A DNA stretch of 64,000 bases, from assembly GCF_026163565.1 (NCBI RefSeq), contig NZ_JAPDKN010000016.1:62001-126000 (forward strand). Reading direction: 5' to 3'. Origin of the DNA: Chryseobacterium sp. YIM B08800 (GTDB lineage: Bacteria; Bacteroidota; Bacteroidia; Flavobacteriales; Weeksellaceae). The notes beneath the pieces are model-generated. The model worked only from the letters and a program-made list of their open reading frames with translations. It made no database searches and was not told where the DNA came from. A program made the translations under genes and the position numbers. Below, in pieces: positions 42,069 to 44,944 of the stretch. Each line of letters starts with the position of its first letter. Positions within the stretch are counted from its first letter, which is position 1.

Positions 42069-42962
42069 ATGATTTCCTGCATAAATTTCACTAATTTTAG
42101 GCAAAAATCATTCGGGATGAGCCGTCGTTCAGATCATTTTCCGGTTTTGGGTATTCAGGATTTCAAGGATGATCATTCTTTGGAAACACACCTCTTGTTT
42201 AATGAACTTTACGGAGAACGTTCTATTGATGATCCGCACAAACATGATTTTTTTATCATTAATATTTTTGAAAAGGCAAAAGGTAATCACACCATCGATT
42301 TTGTAGATTATGAAGTGAAAGACCATCAGATTCATTTGGTTTTTCCCGATCAGGTGCACCAATGGGAAATTGAAGCAGGAACGATAGGATATCAGTTGAT
42401 GATCAGCAGAGCCTGGTTTGAAAGTTTAATTCCAGCTTTGAGATTTTCACAATTATTTTATCAAAATCATCCTGTAATAGATCTTTCAGATGAGCGATTT
42501 AATTTTTTGGTTTATGAATTTAAAACCATTAAAAAACTTTTGAATGATGAGAATATCTTTTGGGAAATGATCCAGAAGCGAAGCGAAATGATCGGATTAC
42601 TCATCAGTGAAGCGGTAGAATTTATTTTTAAAAATGATGAGCAATACCATTCGAATCCTGTTTTTTCAAAATTTTTAAACCTTATTGATGAGCATTTTAA
42701 AGAAGAACGGTCGGTTTCTTTTTATGCTGAAAAGCTTAATATCTCACCTAATTATTTAAATATTATCTGTAAAAAAAGCATTAATTCTTCAGCTTCATCG
42801 CTTATTCAGGATAGAATTTTACTTGAAGCAAAGCGTCTTCTGAAAGTTTCAAAAAAATCGGTGAAAGATATTGTTTTTGATTTGGGATTTTATGATCAGG
42901 CGAGCTTTTCAAAATTTTTCAAGTCTCAAACAGGAATGACGCCGTCTCAATTCAGAGAATGA
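42069..42962 (+). CDS. AraC-family transcription regulator, source of 3' tandem tails
   Basis: A 297-residue regulator (or 281 from the ATG at 42117). An N-terminal cupin-like sensing domain (HKHDFFIINIFEKAKGNHTIDFVDYEV, HLVFPDQVHQWEIE) is followed by two helix-turn-helices (about 190-297): FYAEKLNISPNYLNIICKKS and VKDIVFDLGFYDQASFSKFFK with TGMTPSQFRE. It probably binds a small ligand and controls a nearby or distant gene. The last 42 codons and 173 bp downstream recur twice more as a 301-bp tandem array; in those copies the coding part differs only at synonymous positions. Confidence 0.9.
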   Translation: MISCINFTNFRQKSFGMSRRSDHFPVLGIQDFKDDHSLETHLLFNELYGERSIDDPHKHDFFIINIFEKAKGNHTIDFVDYEVKDHQIHLVFPDQVHQWEIEAGTIGYQLMISRAWFESLIPALRFSQLFYQNHPVIDLSDERFNFLVYEFKTIKKLLNDENIFWEMIQKRSEMIGLLISEAVEFIFKNDEQYHSNPVFSKFLNLIDEHFKEERSVSFYAEKLNISPNYLNIICKKSINSSASSLIQDRILLEAKRLLKVSKKSVKDIVFDLGFYDQASFSKFFKSQTGMTPSQFRE

Positions 42963-43135
42963 TTTATTGGAAAAGGTTGAACTCCTACGGAGTTCTTATT
43001 GTATTTATTACTATTTATTCTACAAAGGTGTTGCTCCTCCGGAGCTGCCCAGATTGTAAGATAAATTGGTATAAGGTAAATTCTAATTAAAAATGATATA
43101 AGTTAATTGTTTAAATAAAAATTCCTGAGAAAAAA

Positions 43136-43263
43136 GTCTTCTGAAAGTTTCAAAAAAATCGGTGAAAGATATTGTTTTTGATTTGGGATTTTATGACCAG
43201 GCAAGTTTTTCAAAATTCTTCAAATCTCAAACGGGAATGACGCCTTCTCAATTCAGAGAATGA
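43136..43263 (+). pseudogene. AraC C-terminal fragment, copy 2
   Basis: Encodes the same 42 residues as the end of the AraC gene, including VKDIVFDLGFYDQASFSKFF and the stop, but with no start codon or N-terminal domain. Seven synonymous differences to the gene. A pseudogene-like tail in the 301-bp array. Confidence 0.85.
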
Positions 43264-43436
43264 TTTATTGGAAAAGGTTGAACTCCTACGGAGTTCTTAT
43301 TGTATTTATTACTATTTATTCTACAAAGGTGTTGCTCCTCCGGAGCTGCCCAGATTGTAAGATAAATTGGTATAAGGTAAATTCTAATTAAAAATGATAT
43401 AAGTTAATTGTTTAAATAAAAATTCCTGAGAAAAAA

Positions 43437-43564
43437 GTCTTCTGAAAGTTTCAAAAAAATCGGTGAAAGATATTGTTTTTGATTTGGGATTTTATGACCA
43501 GGCAAGTTTTTCAAAATTCTTCAAATCTCAAACGGGAATGACGCCTTCTCAATTCAGAGAATGA
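43437..43564 (+). pseudogene. AraC C-terminal fragment, copy 3
   Basis: Identical in the coding part to copy 2, with the same seven synonymous differences to the complete gene. No start codon. The last tail of the 301-bp array. Confidence 0.85.
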
Positions 43565-43771
43565 TTTATTGGAAAAGGTTGAACTCCTACGGAGTTCTTA
43601 TTGTATTTATTACTATTTATTCTACAAAGGTGTTGCTCCTCCGGAGCTGCCCAGATTGTAAGATAAATTGGTATAAGGTAAATTCTAATTAAAAATGATA
43701 TAAGTTAAAGGTTTAAACAAAAATTCCTCTGAAAATACTTCTAAGGAATTTTATATTAATTTTAAATGTAA

Positions 43772-44944
43772 TTATTGTAATCCAGACCAACCAACTGCCC
43801 AAGTTGGAGTAGACTCTCCATTTCCGGCTCCTGTTGCATCAGGTTTTTCGGTAAAAGTGTTGGGTAAAATTGTTACAGATGCACCCGCTGTTGAAGTGGC
43901 TGAAATCTTATTCGTAACATTGGTTGCATTAAATAGAATATCTTTTATTTTATTTTGATCGTTAAAATAAGTAACGGTTGCATCACCTTGTAAATTAATA
44001 CCTGTTTTCCAACTTGAAATCACGGCATTTTCAATCGTTGCTTGAGCTCCCGATGACAACAATATGCCATTAGCTTCGCCTGTGTTATTTCCTCCGATTA
44101 AGGTCACGTTTTTGATAGTTGCACTTGATTGAGGAGAAGCAGTAGGATTTGTAGCATTATTAATACCTTTAATTCCATTATTTCCTGTGCCGTCTGCTTT
44201 TCTTTTGGTATAAATATTTGTAGCGGTACCAATCCATCCGTCTTTATAACTGAATGCATGATTGGTGTTCCCGATTGAAACAATGTTTGAAACATTTACC
44301 GTTCCGCCATAAATTTCGATACCGTCGTCTGCATTATTTAAAAGTGCTACGCTTTCTACTCTGGTCTCGTTACCAATCCCGAAAAGAGAAAGCCCGTTAA
44401 ATTTTTTACCGGCTGAAAAGTTAGCGCCTGCGTATTCAATTCTTACATAATTCAGTGATCCTGAATTATCGGTAGTTTCAGCACCTCCGTAAGTTAAATT
44501 TCCTATTTCTGATAAACCAGTACTTCCTGTATTGATCGGAGCTTTACCACAAATAACTATTCCGCCCCAATTTCCGGCTTCGGCTGTTGTTGATGTAAAT
44601 AAAACGGGTGAGCCGGGAGTTCCGTTTGCATAAATTTTTCCACCCTGTTCTACAAGAATGTAAGATGATGCTCCTGCTGTAGCTGTAATTCTTGTTCCGG
44701 CAGGAATAGAGAGAGTTCCGCCATTTTTTACCGTAACAATACCGGTGAGTTTATAAAGCTTCATCGGATCAAGTGTTACAACTTGTCCGCTGGTAATATC
44801 ACCTTTAAAATTATTAGGATCCTGAGCTATTCCGATAACGGGAATTTCGGAAGTTATATCGTCATCTTTACTGCACGAATAAATGGTAAATGATGAGCCG
44901 ATAATGAAAGCAGCGATGATTATTTTTAAGTGATTTTTCTTCAT
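43772..44944 (-). CDS. Beta-helix lipoprotein linked to TonB receptor
   Basis: From the ATG at 44944 the product has 390 residues (the longer frame adds 13 poor residues). Lipoprotein signal IIIAAFIIGSSFTIYSCSKDDD. The mature part is a Gly/Asn-rich right-handed beta-helix type: VTVKNGGTLSIPAGTRITA, NWGGIVICGKAPINTG, LNYVRIEYAGANFSAGKKFNGLSLFGIGNETRVESV and NADDGIEIYGGTVNV. It is a paralogue of the product of the next gene upstream, and both follow a TonB-dependent receptor gene on the same strand, so it may be a surface lipoprotein that binds the receptor's substrate. Substrate unknown. Confidence 0.82.
   Translation of the reverse strand: MKKNHLKIIIAAFIIGSSFTIYSCSKDDDITSEIPVIGIAQDPNNFKGDITSGQVVTLDPMKLYKLTGIVTVKNGGTLSIPAGTRITATAGASSYILVEQGGKIYANGTPGSPVLFTSTTAEAGNWGGIVICGKAPINTGSTGLSEIGNLTYGGAETTDNSGSLNYVRIEYAGANFSAGKKFNGLSLFGIGNETRVESVALLNNADDGIEIYGGTVNVSNIVSIGNTNHAFSYKDGWIGTATNIYTKRKADGTGNNGIKGINNATNPTASPQSSATIKNVTLIGGNNTGEANGILLSSGAQATIENAVISSWKTGINLQGDATVTYFNDQNKIKDILFNATNVTNKISATSTAGASVTILPNTFTEKPDATGAGNGESTPTWAVGWSGLQ

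Follow-up and report, generated by a model that had tools for sequence, protein, structure and literature searches.

Locus and Structure of the Array

The analyzed window, a stretch of 64,000 nucleotides from Chryseobacterium sp. YIM B08800, includes a gene of an AraC-family regulator with matches to the Pfam families HTH_18 (E 4.5e-21) and HTH_AraC (E 1.3e-11), and a convergent neighbor gene that gave no Pfam match up to E 0.001 (Table 1). The nearest named loci were found in Chryseobacterium sp. BGARF1 and C. balustinum, with protein identity of 96% each. The hairpin located between the convergent genes is probably a two-way terminator.

Table 1. Coordinates of the array and of the features surrounding it, in positions of the window
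Feature	Coordinates	Strand	Remarks
AraC-family regulator gene, 297 aa	42069-42962	+	Open frame; last 128 bp form the coding part of unit 1
Unit 1	42835-43135	+	Allele a tail, common core, end 1
Tract with seven silent differences, 49 bp	42896-42944	+	Copies at 43197-43245 and 43498-43546
Core	42945-43106	+	Same in all three units
Doublet of REP-like palindromes	42982-43044	.	Copies at 43283-43345 and 43584-43646
Unit 2	43136-43436	+	Allele b tail, common core, end 1; present if the assembly is correct here
Unit 3	43437-43737	+	Allele b tail, common core, end 2, continuing into the native downstream flank
Native hairpin between the convergent genes	43720-43752	.	Fold -10.4 kcal/mol, z -3.75; present in relatives
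Convergent neighbor gene, 403 aa	43772-44983	-	Open frame

The end of the regulator gene opens a tandem array of three 301-bp units (42835-43737), each composed of the last 128 bp of the gene and 173 bp of spacer, exactly as the original prediction had described. Tandem Repeats Finder assigned a period of 301 bp, 3.0 copies, and 98% matches to the region 42835-43735, and a self-comparison of the window revealed the array as the sole repeat of this kind. The seven silent third-codon differences between unit 1 and unit 2, all within 49 bp, were likewise confirmed (positions 42896, 42902, 42905, 42917, 42923, 42932, and 42944), with zero differences in the spacer. Units 2 and 3, which had been described as matching each other, differ at six sites, all in the last 29 bp of the unit (43408, 43409, 43417, 43428, 43429, and 43435 in unit 2 coordinates), and unit 3 departs from unit 1 at the same six. 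The reported identity of the non-coding parts thus holds for their first 144 bp and fails for the last 29 bp, where unit 3 is different. Unit 2 is an exact composite, its front being that of unit 3 and its back that of unit 1, with any crossover at unit positions 110-272, so that the crossover fitting the third copy is placed within 163 bp.

The hairpin is whole in unit 3; units 1 and 2 end within its loop and are followed by the gene tail, and the corresponding stretch at the unit 2/3 join is without such a fold (z 0.01). The tails of units 2 and 3 had been considered to lack a start codon. An in-frame TGA stop does directly precede each of them, but a GTG inside each tail opens a 33-aa frame (43162-43263 and 43463-43564), the use of which is unlikely. 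All three tails give identical residues on translation, in agreement with the earlier statement that recombination among them would leave the protein unchanged. A search for known RNA families in 42800-43900 returned none up to E = 1, and three terminator-like palindromes were found, compared with 0.9 expected. The array is probably near-neutral, with the encoded protein unchanged; judged from the sequence, a longer transcript end carrying the three terminator-like palindromes would be its only likely effect.

Distribution of the Unit in Relatives

The unit is present once, at the same place, in four sister species (G108, G131, G100, and G066), the sequence of G066 at this locus being that of C. 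balustinum. The spacer differs in G017, while a short one precedes the hairpin in G189 and C. formosus. A second tail was found in none of the 91 orthologue loci examined, each of which reaches the gene end and at least 563 bp beyond. These are loci rather than species, some species being represented twice; they remained from 137 after removal of the window's own four and of all loci lacking a blastn match that reaches gene position 860. With six further loci added, 97 of 139 passed, corresponding to 69 distinct sequences. A genus-wide search of 173 genomes (137 of which matched) showed no second tail outside the source genome among the matches listed, with few candidates scored per genome.

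A search for a second full AraC gene carrying the unit 2 codons, as suggested earlier, found none in the assembly: the tail is covered by the three array units and by no other of the 15 matches, and among the matches listed for the source genome the closest further AraC relative is 33% identical. In 400 kb of the source genome (20 stretches, about 9%), Tandem Repeats Finder detected two other rows with a period of at least 80, a weak one (96 bp, 75% matches) and a strong one (169 bp, 99%). The strong array consists of four tRNA-Glu (TTC) genes that are 99% alike (locus L160, 3355-3934, contig C13 of source genome G000). The same amount of G108 sequence (400 kb) gave one weak row (102 bp, 73%), and its self-comparison gave one 230-bp pair, 90% alike and about 1 kb apart, with an open frame running through it.

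Segment 43843-44402 of the convergent downstream gene shows 93-95% identity to G108, G131, and G100 and 72-74% to G066 and G017. In the regulator gene, all five are at about the same distance from the window; the neighboring genes thus differ in history.

Two Alleles and a Common Core

The silent share of single changes in the tail is 21%, so that seven silent changes out of seven have p of about 2e-5, or 6e-4 when transitions alone are counted. Confinement of seven random sites to 49 of the 272 shared bp has p of about 1e-4, or 1e-3 when the random sites are limited to silent and non-coding ones. The clustering follows the places where the gene varies between its closest relatives: among the five nearest species (G108, G131, G100, G066, and G017) the tract differs by 1-7 bp, and the preceding 61 bp show 0-2 differences from the window. 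Over all 69 distinct orthologues, 30 of the first 61 bp and 22 of the 49 bp of the tract are variable. Across the 15 pairs formed by six species, nucleotide differences in the tail number 93 for synonymous and 23 for non-synonymous codons.

The tract of units 2 and 3 matches G131 at 47 of 49 sites and G108 at 46; for the tract of unit 1 the corresponding values are 42 and 43, and its best match is G066 (44/49). An exact match to either version was absent from the 69 distinct orthologues, in which the best values were 44/49 for unit 1 and 47/49 for units 2 and 3. Since sister species differ in this tract by 1-7 bp, unit 1 and units 2/3 carry two ordinary alleles, whose distance on this comparison is an ordinary between-species one. 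The proposal of recombination between functional versions of the gene gains support here, as sister orthologues differ in the same 49 bp and to the same degree, and the silent-only pattern indicates that the two versions of the tail each evolved in a functional gene and were brought together by recombination. A change of ancestry is not visible in the gene body ahead of the tract, where the five nearest species show 88-97% identity per segment. Silent-only change in a dead tail can accordingly reflect between-species recombination, and selection on the tail does not have to be invoked.

The core (42945-43106) is identical across the three units. Six core changes are private to the source genome relative to four relatives and common to all units, and one core site, 42955, differs from the window in all 69 distinct orthologues. 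If the two alleles had kept their own spacers, at the divergence of 5-10% seen between sister species, zero differences in 162 bp would have p of about 2e-4 to 4e-8. The six private changes in every unit, together with the identity, indicate that the core is of one recent origin and that the flanking parts are not. Exchange between units would account for the identical core, and an unchanged spacer next to changed coding DNA does not require selection on the tails.

Alternative Explanations

The number of units depends on a draft assembly of 132 contigs. A two-unit array contains every k-mer of the three-unit array up to k = 163; unit 2 adds none, and in such a draft the third copy could be an extra turn of an assembler loop. 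The structure of unit 2 is what a single unequal crossover between two tandem units would yield, and an assembly loop would look alike. Provided that the contig is correct at the join, there are at least two units, and a third is likely, though short of proof. We assign a small but appreciable probability to the explanation that the assembler wrote three units where there are two, or where strains were mixed. It would account for the third unit only, however: at least one duplication is still required by the linkage of the hairpin loop with the gene tail and by the presence of two alleles with two ends. The contamination estimate, which also counts against this explanation, is 0.33%. The original prediction suggested that the tails could be donor cassettes for a silent tail-swap, or the array a copy-number hot spot. 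The 128-bp homology of the tails would permit exchange, and unit 2 indicates that exchange between units can have happened; yet a swap would leave the protein as it is, and the second tail is missing from all 91 orthologue loci and from the matches listed for the 173 genomes of the genus. The device is left without support, and we give it hardly any credence. An active system, in which sister-species tails are captured behind the gene and recombine repeatedly, the gene end acting as a trap for foreign alleles with the protein unchanged, appears only slightly less improbable.

Each unit also carries a doublet of REP-like palindromes, which is dispersed: it occurs at 27 genomic places, the array accounting for three (reversed control, 0). 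Five Y1_Tnp matches were identified in the genome, and one of them, at locus L135 (1388-2131; contig C13 of G000, near 192180-192930), is flanked on both sides by palindromes, five in all within about 750 bp, so that dispersed palindromes also flank a transposase gene, as for a REP element with a putative Y1 transposase. The other four matches have no palindromes in the stretch examined, and the 400-kb sample contains 13 palindromes in total. The L135 gene has the motifs DHIH, WQ, and YILNQKKHH, which are similar to those given for subclass 1.2 in the tables of PMC6006769, where this subclass is described as generally without such terminal structures or repeats. We consider it highly unlikely that the element or its putative transposase made the duplication, despite the doublet in each unit and the one flanked gene among the five Y1_Tnp matches: the doublet is separated from the edges of the unit by 147 bp on the leading side and 91 bp on the trailing side, the element occurs at this locus in four sister species that have one unit, and none of 12 other loci around element matches in the source genome has such a unit. 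In the only one of the 12 with a repeat, L015, that repeat is the element itself, adjoining the transposase gene. Among the matches listed, another genome of the genus, G187, has the palindromic element four times in a row at intervals of about 120 bp (contig C22, 633689-634117).

Proposed Origin of the Array

The explanation that we favor, with a good deal of confidence, is a recent partial tandem duplication holding two diverged alleles of one gene end. The copies are arranged head to tail and their sequence is single in relatives, as expected for a tandem duplication; unit 2 is a recombinant of its neighbors; and two alleles and an illegitimate join are both present at the array. In the first step, an illegitimate join of the native hairpin loop to position 42835 inside the gene would have given a two-unit array. 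The allele difference between units would come from participation of sister-species DNA, which either entered when the duplication formed (by homology-facilitated illegitimate recombination or by a single crossover of a circularised fragment) or was imported into the gene end later. We infer that the duplication and the second allele arrived together, although a duplication with a subsequent import into unit 1 is an almost equally good fit. In a second step, with which the structure agrees exactly, exchange between units would have made the cores alike; if the third unit is more than an assembly loop, one unequal crossover in the core may have produced it. The array would then most likely be a near-neutral remnant, which the same exchange could shrink again.

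Microhomology of 3-10 bp at the join is described for most cases of homology-facilitated illegitimate recombination (PMC3240628). At the array, microhomology is weak: the longest word that the two edges have in common nearby is 8 bp and lies off the join, where no clear shared word is seen and changes may conceal one. Gene-end duplications of 109-950 bp are described for 14 sequenced clones of E. coli, in which they arose by a single crossover of a recircularised fragment (PMC3240628), and pneumococcal transformation also yields tandem duplications, far larger ones (PMC3784515). Riemerella anatipestifer, from a related group, is reported as competent (PMC8459023). The source genome has DprA- and ComEC-family genes, and both families also match most of 14 control genomes; transformation in the source organism is plausible, no more.

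Comparison With Known Systems

An earlier report of the array was not found in the literature, as judged by titles and abstracts. The array resembles short tandem duplications formed by illegitimate joining and unequal crossover in its new join, head-to-tail units, and recombinant middle unit, and is unlike them in that its outer units carry different alleles at between-species distance. It constitutes a small natural record in which alleles from two ancestries stand head to tail after an illegitimate join, and opens no new biological question. The lacZ duplications described in PMC3240628 (109-950 bp) are similar in that a gene end of a few hundred bp was duplicated, from which adjacent alleles would follow; unlike them, the array is known from its sequence alone. 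Partial copies lacking a start and located beside or near an expressed gene are also known from the vls system of Borrelia (PMC11499132), the cassettes of which are described there as about 90% identical to the expressed gene and as varying the protein, whereas the tails considered here encode the same residues.
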